Shown here piece by piece: positions 29,750 to 34,997 of a stretch of 38,659 nucleotides of DNA. The DNA comes from Lutibacter sp. GTDB taxonomy: Bacteria; Bacteroidota; Bacteroidia; Flavobacteriales; Flavobacteriaceae. Location of the stretch: assembly GCA_015662775.1 (NCBI GenBank), contig DQTL01000091.1:1-38659 (forward strand), in the 5' to 3' direction. The position numbers and the translations under genes are program-made. Numbering within the stretch: the stretch's first letter is position 1; each line of letters opens with the position of its first letter. Below the pieces are notes generated by a model. It made no database searches. It worked only from the letters and a program-made list of their open reading frames with translations, and was not told where the DNA came from.

Positions 29750-32700
29750 ATGAAAGAAAATATAAATAAAGAGTTTAAATTATCGAGTTGGTCGATTAAT
29801 AATAAAATGACGGTTTTTGTCATTATTTTTATCATTCTTATTGGTGGATATCAGTCCTATAAAGCCATGCCAAGGGAAGCTTTTCCAGAGGTAGTCATAC
29901 CGCAGATTTTTATCACGACTATTCACCCAGGAAACTCGGCAATTGATATTGAAAAGCTAATTACTAAACCTTTAGAACAAGAGATTAATACCATATCGGG
30001 TATTGAAAAAATCACTTCTACTTCTTCGCAAGATTTTTCCATGATTGTGGCTGAGTTTGATTTTAGTGTGACTCCAGAAGAAGCACTTCGTAAAGTAAAA
30101 GACAAGGTAGATGTTGCTATGTCAGATTCCGATTTTCCTAAAGATTTACCTTCAGACCCAGCGATTCAAGAGTTGAATATTTCGGAAATGATGCCGATTA
30201 TGAACATTAATCTTTCGGGTGAATTTTCAATAGATCAACTCAAAGAATATGGTGAATATTTAGAAGATAAAATAGAAAGTTTACCCGAAATATCAGGTGT
30301 TGATATACGAGGTGTACAGGATAAAGAAGTAGAAATTGCAATCGATTTGTATAAAATGCAAGCTTCTGAAATTAGTTTTTATGATATAGCAGGTGTCATA
30401 CAAAATGAAAACATGACTATTTCTGGTGGTGAGTTACAAGAAAATGGAATTAAAAGAAATGTACGTGTACTGGGCGAATTTAAACGCCCTGACGAAATCG
30501 AGGATATTATTATCAAGCAAGAGTTTGGTAATATTGTGTATCTAAGAGATATTGCAGAAGTTAATTTTCAAGGCGAAGAACGAGTCAGTTACGCAAGAGA
30601 GTTTATGAAACCCGTTGTAATGCTAGATGTAAAGAAAAAAGGAGGAAAAAACTTAATTGAAGCCTCTGAAAAAATCAATGAAATTTTAAAGAAAGCAAAA
30701 GCAACTGTTTTTCCAAATAATTTAGAAATATCGGTCACCAATGACATGTCTAATCAAACAAAAAAACAAGTTTTAAACTTAGAGAATAGTATTATTATAG
30801 GAGTAATCTTGGTGGTGCTAGTACTGTTATTTTTCTTAGGTTTACGAAATGCCTTATTTGTAGGTATTGCCATACCGCTTTCTATGTTAATGTCGTTTAT
30901 GTTGCTAAATATGATGGGTGTTACCCTTAATATGATGGTGTTGTTTGGCTTAATATTGGCACTGGGAATGCTGGTGGATAATGGAATCGTAGTAGTCGAA
31001 AATATTTATAGGCTGTATGATGAAGGACATACATTAATCAAAGCAGCCAAACTAGGTGTAGGCGAAGTAGCCATGCCTATTATAGCTTCAACTGCAACAA
31101 CTTTAGCCGCTTTTTTACCTCTGGCTTTTTGGCCTGGTATGATGGGTCAGTTTATGAAATTTTTACCGATTACGATAATTATTGTTTTGGGTTCGTCTTT
31201 GTTTGTTGGTCTTGTCGTTAACCCTATGTTAACCTCGGTGTACATGAAGTTAAAAGAAAAAAAATTACCGTTAATTAAACTATCAATTTATAATGGAATT
31301 TTACTTTTAATTGGTTTTTTGTTAATCTTTATAGGATTTGAAGGAAATAAAGGAACTTCAAATGCAATTGGGCTGGTCTTAGTTCTTTTTAGTCTATTAT
31401 GGCTTTTAAATTATTTTGCTTTCACACCTGCCACCCAATGGTTTCAAGATAAACTTTTGCCTTGGCTAGAAGGTCTATATGAAAGAGGTTTAGAATTTGC
31501 ACTAAAAGGATGGCGACCTTATGCGTTTTTAGTTGGTACTTTTGTTTTGTTGATTTTTTCTATGCTATTGATGAAAATGAATCCACCAAAAACCCTATTC
31601 TTTCCAGAAACACCACCTAAACAAGTTTTTGTATTTGTAGAGTTCCCGATAGGAACTGATATAGAGGTCACTAATAATTTGACTTTGACTATGGAATCAG
31701 ACATCATCGATTTTATAAAAAAATATGAAAAAAACGGAAAGAATTTTTTAATTACTTCTGTGATTGGGCAAGTAGGTGAAGGAACCGCAGATCCAAATCA
31801 AGATATGGGAAGTGGAAACACACCAAACAAATCACGTATTACCATAGATTTTGTAGATTATGAATTTAGACAAGGAATTGACACTCAAGATGTTTTAGAT
31901 GATATTCGAAAGTTGGTTCAAAAATACCCTGGCGTTATCATTTCCGTTGATAAACCCAAAGATGGGCCACCAGCAGGTGCACCAGTTAATATTGAGGTAG
32001 CAGGTGATGATTATTATCTGATTATGCACGAAGCAGAGAAGATTAAAAATTATATTGAGGAATCAAGTGTCGTAGGTTACGAAGAATTAAAACTAGATGT
32101 AGAACAAGGAAAACCAGAATTATCGGTTATCATTGATCGTCAAAAAGCAAGACGCTTGGCACTTTCAACAGGACAAATAGGTGATGCTTTACGAACTTCA
32201 ATTTATGGGAAAGAAATTTCAACCTATAAAGATGGCGAAGATGACTATCCTATTAATATGCGTTTGCATGAGAAATACAGGTATAATAAAGATGCCTTGA
32301 TGAATCAATTGATTACTTTTAGAAATCAAAGCAATGGTAAGATTGTACAAGTCCCTATTTCAGCTGTAGCAAAAACAGAAAACACAACTACTTTTAGTGC
32401 GGTAAAACGTAAGGATTTAAAACGATTAATCACAATTACATCTAATGTGTTGAATAATTACAATGCTACGGAAGTCAATGATAATCTAAAAAAATTATTG
32501 GCAAATTACCCACTTGCCAAAGGTATTAATATCACTTTTACAGGCGAACAAGAAGAACAAGCTAAAATGATGGCATTTCTTTCTAATGCTTTGTTGATAG
32601 CCTTAGCCCTGATTTTTTTAATCATAGTGGGACAGTTTAATTCAATCAGTACACCTGTGATTATATCGGTTTCTGTTTTATTGAGTTTAATAGGTGTTTT

Positions 32701-33175
32701 ATTAGGTTTGGTCATGTTTAAAATGGATTTTGTCGTATTAATGACCATGATTGGAATCATTTCTTTAGCAGGAATTGTGGTAAACAATGCCATCGTTCTT
32801 CTCGATTATACGAGTTTAGTTATGAAACGAAAAGTACTAGAAAATGGCTTTGATGAGTTAGAGAAGATTGGAAACAAAAAAATACTTTTTGAAAGTATCG
32901 TAGAAGGTGGAAAAGTACGTTTACGACCTGTATTATTAACAGCCATCACTACAATACTAGGATTGTTGCCACTTGCAATAGGTGTCAATTTCAACTTTGC
33001 AACACTCTTTACTGAGTTTAATCCACAGTTTTATTTAGGAGGTGATAATACCGCGTTTTGGGGACCTATGTCATGGACAGTAATCTTTGGTTTGAGCTTT
33101 GCTACTTTCTTGACCTTGATTATTGTACCGATTATGTATTATTTATTGAATCGATTTAAACTTTGGCGGAAATAG
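29750..33175 (+). CDS. Efflux RND transporter permease (AcrB/HAE-like)
   Basis: 1141 aa; 'MPREAFPEVVIPQIFITTIHPGNSAIDIEKLITKPLEQEI', 'GMLVDNGIVVVENIYR', 'GIVVNNAIVLLDY', 'RLRPVLLTAITTILGLLPLA'. Confidence 0.96.
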   Translation: MKENINKEFKLSSWSINNKMTVFVIIFIILIGGYQSYKAMPREAFPEVVIPQIFITTIHPGNSAIDIEKLITKPLEQEINTISGIEKITSTSSQDFSMIVAEFDFSVTPEEALRKVKDKVDVAMSDSDFPKDLPSDPAIQELNISEMMPIMNINLSGEFSIDQLKEYGEYLEDKIESLPEISGVDIRGVQDKEVEIAIDLYKMQASEISFYDIAGVIQNENMTISGGELQENGIKRNVRVLGEFKRPDEIEDIIIKQEFGNIVYLRDIAEVNFQGEERVSYAREFMKPVVMLDVKKKGGKNLIEASEKINEILKKAKATVFPNNLEISVTNDMSNQTKKQVLNLENSIIIGVILVVLVLLFFLGLRNALFVGIAIPLSMLMSFMLLNMMGVTLNMMVLFGLILALGMLVDNGIVVVENIYRLYDEGHTLIKAAKLGVGEVAMPIIASTATTLAAFLPLAFWPGMMGQFMKFLPITIIIVLGSSLFVGLVVNPMLTSVYMKLKEKKLPLIKLSIYNGILLLIGFLLIFIGFEGNKGTSNAIGLVLVLFSLLWLLNYFAFTPATQWFQDKLLPWLEGLYERGLEFALKGWRPYAFLVGTFVLLIFSMLLMKMNPPKTLFFPETPPKQVFVFVEFPIGTDIEVTNNLTLTMESDIIDFIKKYEKNGKNFLITSVIGQVGEGTADPNQDMGSGNTPNKSRITIDFVDYEFRQGIDTQDVLDDIRKLVQKYPGVIISVDKPKDGPPAGAPVNIEVAGDDYYLIMHEAEKIKNYIEESSVVGYEELKLDVEQGKPELSVIIDRQKARRLALSTGQIGDALRTSIYGKEISTYKDGEDDYPINMRLHEKYRYNKDALMNQLITFRNQSNGKIVQVPISAVAKTENTTTFSAVKRKDLKRLITITSNVLNNYNATEVNDNLKKLLANYPLAKGINITFTGEQEEQAKMMAFLSNALLIALALIFLIIVGQFNSISTPVIISVSVLLSLIGVLLGLVMFKMDFVVLMTMIGIISLAGIVVNNAIVLLDYTSLVMKRKVLENGFDELEKIGNKKILFESIVEGGKVRLRPVLLTAITTILGLLPLAIGVNFNFATLFTEFNPQFYLGGDNTAFWGPMSWTVIFGLSFATFLTLIIVPIMYYLLNRFKLWRK

Positions 33176-33259
33176 GAACACAGTGATATGATGACTTTAA
33201 GTCATCTTATCACTAAATAGGAACACAGTGATACGATGACTTCAAGTCATCGTATCACT
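33170..33259. repeat. Two tandem 45-bp REP-like units, each with a 33-nt palindrome
   Basis: AAATAGGAACAC+AGTGATATGATGACTTTAAGTCATCTTATCACT (33170-33214) and AAATAGGAACAC+AGTGATACGATGACTTCAAGTCATCGTATCACT (33215-33259). Confidence 0.95.
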
Positions 33260-33270
33260 AAAAAATCATC

Positions 33271-33909
33271 ATGCAATTAGAAAAAGGACAACTATATCAT
33301 ATCTACAACCAAGGAAATAATCATAGAAAGATATTCTTTAAACGAGATAACTATTTGTTCTTTTTAAAAAAAGTAAAAACCTATATTTCTCCTTATGCAG
33401 ATATTGTTGCTTGGTGTTTAATGCCTAACCATTTCCATTTTATGGTTTATATAAGAGAGGTGGAAATTTCAGTTGAAAGTGATAAGTTGACTCAACAGAG
33501 TGATAAGATGACTCCAAGTGATCTTATCACTACTAACAAAAAACGAACTTTTAATAATTCTATAGCAATTATGCTTCGCTCTTATACTAGAGCAATCAAC
33601 AAACAAGAAAACGCATCAGGTTCATTATTTAAGGCTCATACCAAAGCCGAATGCATCAATTGCCACAAAGGAATTACTCCTTCCTTTATAATGCAAGACG
33701 CAGTTACAAAAATCAATTATCAAAATTCTGAAAAACAATATCCTCAGGTTTGTTTTAACTATATTCATAATAACCCAGTAAAAGCGGGTTTAGTTAGAAA
33801 TGCAATTGATTGGGAGTTTTCTTCTGCAAAAGATTATGCAGGTATTAGAAATGGAAAATTAATCAACAAAGATGTGGCTTTAGAATATATTGACAAGTTA
33901 TCAGAGTGA
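33271..33909 (+). CDS. REP-associated tyrosine transposase (Y1/IS200-like, RAYT-type)
   Basis: 'YHIYNQGNNHRKIFFKRDNYLFFLKKV', HUH-like 'CLMPNHFHFMVYI', 'IMLRSYTRAINKQENASGSLFKAHTKAECI', 'VCFNYIHNNPVKAGLV'; surrounded by palindromes. Confidence 0.92.
   Translation: MQLEKGQLYHIYNQGNNHRKIFFKRDNYLFFLKKVKTYISPYADIVAWCLMPNHFHFMVYIREVEISVESDKLTQQSDKMTPSDLITTNKKRTFNNSIAIMLRSYTRAINKQENASGSLFKAHTKAECINCHKGITPSFIMQDAVTKINYQNSEKQYPQVCFNYIHNNPVKAGLVRNAIDWEFSSAKDYAGIRNGKLINKDVALEYIDKLSE
33478..33531. repeat. Intragenic half copy plus full 33-nt copy of the flanking palindrome inside the transposase CDS
   Basis: AGTGATAAGTTGACT (from 33478) and AGTGATAAGATGACTCCAAGTGATCTTATCACT (33499-33531), in frame as SDKLTQQ-SDKMTPSDLIT. 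Confidence 0.9.
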
Positions 33910-33987
33910 TAAGATGAATTCGAGAAGCCACTTCAATGAGCGATTTGCTGAGTGAGTAATTAGATGACTTCGAGTCATCTAATTACT
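33904..33987. repeat. Downstream half copy (33904-33923) and full 33-nt palindrome (33955-33987)
   Basis: AGTGATAAGATGAATTCGAG supplies the TGA stop; AGTAATTAGATGACTTCGAGTCATCTAATTACT is a near-perfect palindrome with compensated stem changes. Confidence 0.9.
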
Positions 33988-34020
33988 AGACTAGATTAAC
34001 AAGAACAAACAAATATTTCA

Positions 34021-34028
34021 TACATTTG
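34021..34028 (+). promoter_or_regulatory. Possible -7 element TACATTTG upstream of the PorP/SprF-like gene
   Basis: TAnnTTTG match 19 nt upstream of the ATG at 34047. Confidence 0.35.
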
Positions 34029-34046
34029 TATTATAGTTTTATAAGT

Positions 34047-34923
34047 ATGAAAAAGTATTTACTTACACCACTATTCCTGTTTTTTATAATGTTAGTCAGC
34101 TATTCCCAAGTACAAAATATTCATGTTTTAAGCTTATACAATACAAATGTTATCAATCCTGCTTATGCAGGTAATAATGGAAGTCTAAATATTAGTGCAG
34201 TATATGGAACACAATGGATTGGAGTTATAGGAGCACCTAAGAATTTTCTATTTAATGTACACGCTCCAATTTTCGATGGATTTGGAGCTGGTATTTCCTA
34301 CGAAAGAGGAACAATAGGTCCATTAACTGAAAATGGAATTAATATTGATTTTTCTTATAAATATGATTTAACAGAAAAGAATCATCTTGCAGTTGGGGTA
34401 AAATACCTGCATAAACAAGTTCGTGGTTTTCGGATTTGGTGAAAGAGAAAGAGAGAATTTTTCATTTGGGTTCTTTTATAATTCAGAAAGATTTTTTGCT
34501 GACATAGCATTTATTGAATTGTTTAATAAGGTTTCTTATGGCTTAGGAGATAGAAAAATAGAGTTATCCCAAAAAAAGTTTTTTGCCCGAGTTGGGTATA
34601 TTGTTTATGCATCTGACTTAATAAAGATAAAGCCCTACTTACTTCTTGATGCTTATAAAGGGAGTCCAATTTCCCCTGATATTGGAGTAAGCACAATCTT
34701 CGATAATATCCTAGAAGTGGGAATTAACTATGATCTTTATGATGAGTTGGGGTTGATTTTATATAGCCCTAAATTTTTCAAAGTTTTTCAGATTGGCGTG
34801 TCAACAGTAATCTATACTAAGAATCAATTGTTGACAAGTGCAGGTGAATCAAAGTCTTTTTCTGTTTTCACCAATTTAAATATTAATGCATTCGGTAAGA
34901 AAAGCGAAAAAAGATATTTCTAA
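34047..34923 (+). pseudogene. PorP/SprF family T9SS membrane protein, frameshifted and internally shortened
   Basis: N-terminal part 'VQNIHVLSLYNTNVINPAYAGNNGSLNISAVYGTQWIGVIGAPKNFLFNVHAPI...GAGISYERGTIGPLTENGINIDFSYKYDL' stops at 34442; overlapping ORF 34423-34923 resumes with 'NFSFGFFYNSERFFADIAFIELF'. Confidence 0.75.
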
Positions 34924-34997
34924 TAATTAATATCATCTTATTTCTTTTCCTTTCAGCGAACCTGTCTGCCTTTTTGGTGGTAGAGCGGTCTTAGGTT

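Follow-up and report, generated by a model that had tools for sequence, protein, structure and literature searches.

RAYTs of the Bacteroidota have been described together with their REPs by Quentin et al. (2018; PMC6006769), who report in-frame intragenic REPs for subclass 2.4. The coevolution of RAYTs and REPs in general was treated by Nunvar et al. (2010). For the TnpAREPs known so far, the substrate that is bound and cleaved is the folded, single-stranded REP; in the E. coli protein, K82 of helix α3 contacts a mid-stem base, and residues around strand β4 contact the GTAG foot (PMC8266576). How RAYTs recognize their REPs, and how enzyme and repeat stay matched amid fast evolution, is an open question for which there are three experimental models (PMC8266576). 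Below, we describe a RAYT locus in a stretch of 38,659 nucleotides of DNA from Lutibacter sp. (contig DQTL01000091.1), referred to throughout as the window, and the family of 82 Bacteroidota loci to which it belongs.

The nearest described relatives are two subclasses of Quentin et al. (PMC6006769). Subclass 2.4 (Bertels group 4) encodes, like the present family, an HUH Y1 protein, and its REPs both flank the gene and lie within it, in frame between the HUH strand and helix C; it is likewise common in Bacteroidetes and has the NHFH motif, the window protein having YIHNNP. Since in-frame REPs are already reported in that subclass, the layout is not new. The family differs in lacking the single or double GT[AG]G foot, in having F-K/R in place of the W-Q motif of strand β4 (the alignment gives L-F-K/R at residues 119–121), in that most members have YIHQNP, in its locus-specific arms and in a covariation of residues and arms that was not found reported there. 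With subclass 2.6 (Bertels group 5) the family shares its occurrence in Bacteroidetes, the YIH[QN]NP motif, unusual secondary structures at the flanks (here atypical hairpins) and a longer distance from HUH to Tyr. The genes of that subclass have no internal REP, and intragenic REPs are called unique to 2.4, whereas they are the rule here; W-Q is absent in this comparison too.

More distant systems share single features. The E. coli TnpAREP/REP pair (group 2; 4er8) has the same fold, a DNA-binding helix past the HUH strand and a mid-stem mismatch of the kind seen in part of the family, but E. coli REPs depend on GTAG and on a fixed bulge, number in the hundreds, and are not found inside the gene. 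IS200/IS605 elements (IS608, ISDra2) share the HUH/Y1 fold and presumably hairpin recognition; the present locus differs in showing no sign of recent whole-unit transposition and in having hairpin copies that lack the gene. Short palindromes that lie in frame in protein genes are also known from Rickettsia palindromic elements and other intragenic REPs (PMC3733652); here the main host is the gene for the transposase that goes with the palindrome, and site and frame are fixed. The apparent novelty, from sequence comparison, is a code linking residues to base pairs that lies not in the loop encoded by the palindrome but in helix 94–112 and the 118–123 turn; in a search of mainly open-access literature, no earlier report of such a code was found.

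The locus and its palindromes

The original prediction was of a RAYT locus bracketed by palindromes, with two tandem 45-bp units on the left and a half and a full copy on the right, and all of these pieces are in the sequence. The tandem units, recognized by repeat comparison and unassigned to a strand, each consist of AAATAGGAACAC followed by a palindrome (33170..33259; 33170–33214 and 33215–33259), and the first holds the last codon and the stop of an RND transporter gene (ORF 29750–33175). The palindrome of the first unit (33182..33214; fold z −6.5) has a T-T mismatch at pair 8; that of the second (33227..33259; z −9.0) is perfect, being paired at this position as had been claimed, and its arms are those of three solo copies elsewhere in the genome. 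On the right, a half copy spans the RAYT stop codon (33905..33924, + strand; repeat comparison) and is followed by a perfect palindrome (33955..33987; z −10.2); like those upstream, this palindrome is given no strand. The two compensated stem differences predicted for this last copy are found in comparison with unit 1, where there is also one single-sided change, but compared with unit 2 three stem pairs differ, and all three are compensated. The predicted inventory was correct for the flanks but missed two copies within the gene, both read on the + strand: a full, in-frame copy with one stem mismatch, found by repeat comparison and folding (33499..33531, codons 77–87, SDKMTPSDLIT), and a half copy found by arm-motif search (33478..33492).

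The palindromes are 33 nt long with the architecture 15-3-15; a pattern with a 4-nt spacer gave zero matches, the actual spacer being 3. Each full copy in the window folds at z −6.5 to −10.2 relative to 200 shuffles, the window contains 15 occurrences of the arm motif where 3.8 are expected, and over the 82 loci there are 2.46 such 33-mer palindromes per locus against 0.04 in shuffled loci. The palindromes in the window are therefore not due to chance.

The RAYT gene and its product

The gene (33271..33909, + strand) encodes a single-tyrosine HUH nuclease of 212 aa, named from NCBIfam NF047646 and the fold match of an AF2 model. Both the NHFH and YIHNNP motifs of RAYT/TnpAREP proteins are present. 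The two histidines of the HUH motif H54-F-H56 (33430..33438, + strand), the presumed catalytic Tyr164 within YIHNNP (33760..33762, + strand), N168 and P169 are invariant in 65 homologous sequences. NF047646 (REP_Tyr_transpos) matches the window protein with E 2e-13 and 50.3 bits, under its curated cut-off of 80 bits; the cut-off is a threshold for naming and not a defining trait, and the low score is that of a divergent member. The same model matches 65/65 family members at E < 0.001; Pfam Y1_Tnp gave no match in the window protein. The AF2 model (pLDDT 88) has as its best PDB fold match 4er8, the E. coli RAYT bound to a REP (E 5e-8; 13% identity in the structural alignment), followed by IS608 and ISDra2, and so has the TnpAREP fold in this comparison of model with PDB. 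In the model the codons of the internal palindrome correspond to a loop, predicted with low confidence, that lies after the HUH strand and before helix 94–112. As judged from its motifs and modelled fold, the window product is a divergent RAYT/TnpAREP, and with the cognate palindromes it makes up a pair of the predicted REP/RAYT type.

A family of loci with an internal palindrome

The 82 loci analysed comprise 80 from a genome scan (47–74% identity), locus L022 and the window; most are short MAG contigs. Palindromes lie 5' of the gene in 54 loci, within it in 69 and 3' of it in 58. The internal copies are at the same protein loop in each of those 69, in frame between HUH and Tyr as in subclass 2.4. 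They occupy frame 0 in 71/75 cases, and also in 46 of the 49 for which frame 0 and one or more of the other frames are open, so avoidance of stop codons fails to explain the frame; the explanation is either that one ancestral internal copy has turned over in place or that the peptide is under selection. In some loci, L181, L022 and L119 among them, the loop is short and holds no internal copy, and the insert is thus dispensable.

The 15-3-15 architecture is constant throughout, but each locus has arms of its own, and these turn over. An internal copy resembles the flanking copies of its own locus with a best identity of 0.859, against 0.607 when loci are shuffled (sd 0.015, max 0.659). This is above the identity of 0.78 between the internal copies of nearest protein relatives (p 0.009) and the 0.74 between an internal copy and a relative's flank (p 0.0004); a partial Mantel test of palindrome matching with protein distance controlled gives 0.57 (p 0.001). 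The suggestion that the locus represents a Bacteroidota version of REP/RAYT with its own palindrome type needs to be modified accordingly: it is such a system, but there is no single type, and Bacteroidota RAYT–REPs were already in PMC6006769. No conserved target or guide was found outside the palindromes of the family, just a weak T before and A-rich sequence after them, and GT[AG]G is near the 5' foot in 12/202 palindromes, which is about chance. As no guide of the GTAG type was found, the cleavage-site rule of the known TnpAREPs is not transferable. More distant Bacteroidota RAYTs (L171, L177, L188 and L191) also have perfect palindromes, with other cores and in some cases intragenic in another frame; distant RAYTs whose palindromes have other architectures were left out of the analysis of the code.

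Compensated changes and the pair-9 mismatch

Paired changes in the stem had been noted at the locus, and comparison of copies within loci over the 82 loci shows them in large excess, with 109 compensated double changes against about 6 expected, alongside 147 single-sided changes. The further claim, that paired changes argue for a maintained hairpin, is only partly sustained. Compensation is beyond chance, but hairpin-templated mutation could by itself cause the same pattern; compensation is for this reason a weaker argument for recognition than the covariation of protein residues and stem pairs described below. One alternative to be weighed is that mutation is the whole cause, replication over the hairpin copying arm onto arm (quasi-palindrome correction) with neither selection nor recognition. 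Template switching is known to occur at hairpins of such stability, and with compensated doubles so far above chance the process may well contribute. It leaves unexplained that separate copies of a locus have one arm type in common, that particular base pairs vary with protein residues lying outside the loop and that a mismatch at pair 9 is kept, and as a full account we regard it as unlikely. This mismatch, C-A or T-G, is found in 72/202 palindromes of the 82 loci and occurs in an internal copy only with Gly99. It is possibly the counterpart of the bulge of E. coli REPs; considered as a strand marker, it has no consistent orientation relative to the gene.

It is also conceivable that the palindromes serve expression of the RAYT gene, as a 5' leader hairpin, an in-message hairpin and a terminator, perhaps acting as RNA operators to which the protein binds. 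Their placement is consistent with this: 5' copies have a median position 40 nt ahead of the start codon and 3' copies 9 nt past the stop, and solo copies elsewhere also come after stop codons. The sequence after the copies is A-rich, not T-rich, however, so they are not standard terminators; recognition of DNA suits the protein family, and an expression role alone does not predict dispersed copies. We consider this explanation, too, to be unlikely.

Copies elsewhere in the genome and in related genomes

The window belongs to a genome assembly of 2.83 Mb in 340 contigs (98% complete), in which copies were counted by pattern searches with a reversed control. The exact core GATGACTNNNAGTCATC has six occurrences, of which three belong to the locus and three lie elsewhere, and the original expectation of further copies in the genome was thus borne out; when three mismatches are allowed, core matches are about as frequent as in the reversed control. 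Two solo copies sit 7–8 nt past the stops of TolC-like and SPFH-type genes, and in the first of these (L007, around 1493–1525; G000:C103) the end of the TolC-like gene seems to be partly duplicated beyond the palindrome. The third solo copy (L009:1493–1525; G000:C239:6427–6459) lies in frame within a type IX secretion tail protein gene; these gene names come from reading the translations. Three solo copies in 2.83 Mb imply a low-copy REP. Classical REPs number tens to hundreds, which is not the case here, and lie mostly after genes, which the placement after stop codons fits.

Amongst 199 related genomes the palindrome core was found in five, and four of these are among the five genomes with a close RAYT; the fifth has a RAYT remnant containing a stop. 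As in other RAYT/TnpAREP systems, then, cognate palindromes flank the gene and are dispersed, and are not found where the gene is absent, at low copy number in this case. In two genomes, G121 and G002, core palindromes occur without an intact gene or distant from a gene of matching type. G121 has three palindrome copies and only a RAYT remnant. In G002, G136 and G121, dispersed copies (L148, L150, L151, L154 and L157) are near the ends of housekeeping genes (sigma factor, dnaK, clpX region and rpiB), mostly 3–23 nt beyond stop codons. A search of viral contigs yielded a single relative.

The locus might instead be an ordinary active insertion sequence of the IS200/IS605 group, with the palindromes as its left and right ends. 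The HUH/Y1 fold and the hairpins at both ends agree with this, as does a position that is not common to congeners. Four congeners have a patatin gene and then tsaB after the RND gene, and in the window the RAYT unit and a frameshifted PorP gene replace patatin. The multi-copy transposition of IS200/IS605 elements is not seen, there being one close RAYT copy in the window genome and no identical ones. Two more RAYT-like genes (L002, G000:C10:4208–4774; L003, G000:C44:10421–10954) have 31–34% identity, and the palindrome type of the window was not found near either. Identity to the copies in related genomes is merely 55–77%, some palindromes are solo and gene-free, and the gene has an internal copy of the same palindrome; together these observations make an active insertion sequence improbable. 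Comparison with related strains did not provide the empty site that had been sought: the congeners keep RND and tsaB with patatin between them, so that a scar-free site is not demonstrable. Patatin was not found in the window genome by a search that had no positive control. The PorP/SprF gene 3' of the RAYT (33988–34997) consists of overlapping frames, 34026–34442 and 34423–34923, and is likely frameshifted.

Protein residues that covary with the stem

The code was derived and mostly tested on the same 73 loci, the internal copy being used where present. Outside the palindrome-encoded loop, residues 99, 118, 121, 122 and 123 stand out in mutual information with palindrome type, and mutual information with single palindrome positions adds residues 103 and 107. 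Residues 99, 103 and 107, on one face of helix 94–112 (33550..33606, + strand), covary in that order with pairs 9, 11 and 13; residues 118, 121, 122 and 123 of the following turn (118–123, S-L-F-K-A-H; 33622..33639, + strand) covary with pairs 6, 7 and 10. Residue 99 and pair 9 are concordant in 73/73 loci (A/S99 with G9 19/19, other residues without G9 54/54) and residue 107 and pair 13 in 71/73 (R107 with A13 52/53; N, Q, S or K without A13 19/20). Residue 103 and pair 11 agree in 67/73, R103 being found in 61 of 66 loci with T11 and one of seven without, and residue 122 and pair 10 in 65/73, E122 being found in 27 of 35 loci with G10 and none of 38 without. The window protein fits its own hairpin, with A99/G9, R103/T11, R107/A13 and K121-A122-H123 alongside arms of the GATGACT type. 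A trivial cause, that the codons of the code residues resemble the arm DNA, was considered and rejected, no 8-mer being shared in the 73 loci.

Phylogenetically independent contrasts, on a tree built leaving out residues 99, 118 and 121–123, give concordant to discordant counts of 13:0 for residue 99, 11:0 for 107, 15:0 for 122 and 6:0 for 103, against a median |c−d| of 2 in a background of 1098 residue–base pairs. Five code residues predict arm identity at 0.73 and base 10 at 0.69, the whole remaining protein reaching 0.63 and 0.39, and 300 random sets of five columns at most 0.66 and 0.49, respectively. Proteins of core identity ≥0.8 with different arms share 1.75 of five code residues, and same-arm pairs 5.0. 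That shared ancestry alone is responsible, related proteins carrying related palindromes with no contact between them, accords with the relatedness of many loci and a protein–palindrome distance correlation of 0.32, but is highly improbable in view of the contrasts, the same-core pairs, the poorer prediction by whole-protein similarity, the location of the code positions on one helix face and one turn, and RAYT–helicase fusion loci at the same site that differ in motif and palindrome together.

Two sets of loci were held out. In the first, of 12 later-found loci, 107–13 was concordant in 12/12 (p 0.015), 103–11 in 11/12 (p 0.018) and 122–10 in 11/12 (p 0.010; Fisher tests), and 99–9 was not supported. 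In the second, of 10 loci, the counts were 8/10, 6/10 and 5/10 in the same order and 6/10 for 99–9, none significant alone; about half of these loci have palindromes out of register, as judged only post hoc. Combined, the hold-outs give 20/22 for 107–13 (p 0.002), 17/22 for 103–11 (p 0.02) and 16/22 for 122–10 (p 0.017). At the level of sequence association, 107–13 is robust and 103–11 and 122–10 are supported; the 99–9 association is confined to the close family, the rule failing outside it (13/22 in the combined hold-outs, p 0.12). That a few protein positions change with the base pairs of the hairpin suggests a readable DNA-recognition code.

Proposed mode of recognition and turnover

The hairpin type is matched to the enzyme, and we think it probable that the locus is a low-copy REP/RAYT system with recognition, cleavage and spread as in the following scheme. 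By order of structural elements, the covarying residues lie in the equivalent helix, and just ahead of the equivalent strand, of those through which E. coli TnpAREP contacts its REP, and direct reading of the stem with no GTAG guide would best explain this. The enzyme would read the folded single-stranded hairpin through contacts from helix 94–112 and the following turn, and would cut close to the feet of the hairpin, as is known for E. coli TnpAREP, thereby spreading or renewing copies; spread to gene ends and renewal may proceed by cleavage and strand transfer, or by conversion. As the recognition residues drift, palindromes of fitting type would take the place of the copies flanking the gene and within it, or convert them, and non-cognate copies would be left behind and then decay. 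The internal copy, in a dispensable surface loop and almost always in the same frame, would move with the gene.

A more specific and tentative form of this proposal, which we hold to be possible though it has less than an even chance, is a modular code in which successive turns of the helix (99, 103, 107) read pairs 9, 11 and 13 and the next turn (118, 121–123) reads 6, 7 and 10. The internal palindrome would then be a functional, gene-linked record of the current target, and a change of code would be followed by replacement of the internal and flanking palindromes in a joint switch of specificity. About 70 natural pairs of enzyme and hairpin differing in step, including sister pairs with swapped specificity (L048 and L050), make the question of enzyme–repeat matching directly testable. 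They also provide a code, found in nature, by which a small single-strand nuclease might be re-targeted, and an instance of a gene that carries within its coding sequence the presumed target of the enzyme it encodes.

Mosaic loci and helicase fusions

In mosaic loci the code residues match the internal copy over the discordant flank in 14/15 cases. The core proteins of L048 and L050 are 81% alike. The motif of L050 is K-REK (G99, K118, R121-E122-K123), and the locus carries three ACACCGTGACT palindromes; L048 has S-KAH (A99, S118, K121-A122-H123) with TACGATGACT inside and downstream of the gene, and ACACCGTGACT still upstream. At seven Flavobacteriaceae loci (L065, L069, L073, L075, L078, L093 and L104) the RAYT gene is fused in frame, at one site, to the same PIF1-type helicase gene. 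Four of these have K-REK with ACACCGTGACT, and three have S-RKE/RKK with TTTCACT. Non-cognate copies have decayed in L078 (at the junction) and L093 (at codon 126); in L073 decay of the non-cognate 5' copy is not yet seen.

The fusion partner is a PIF1-like helicase of roughly 800 aa (PIF1, HRDC, HTH_40), and the 3' palindrome forms an in-frame linker (e.g. THTVTQSHGVS). Helitrons share with these loci a chain of HUH nuclease and PIF1 helicase. In a further locus (L090:123–3155) the RAYT ORF continues in frame into a Mur ligase/alanine racemase gene.
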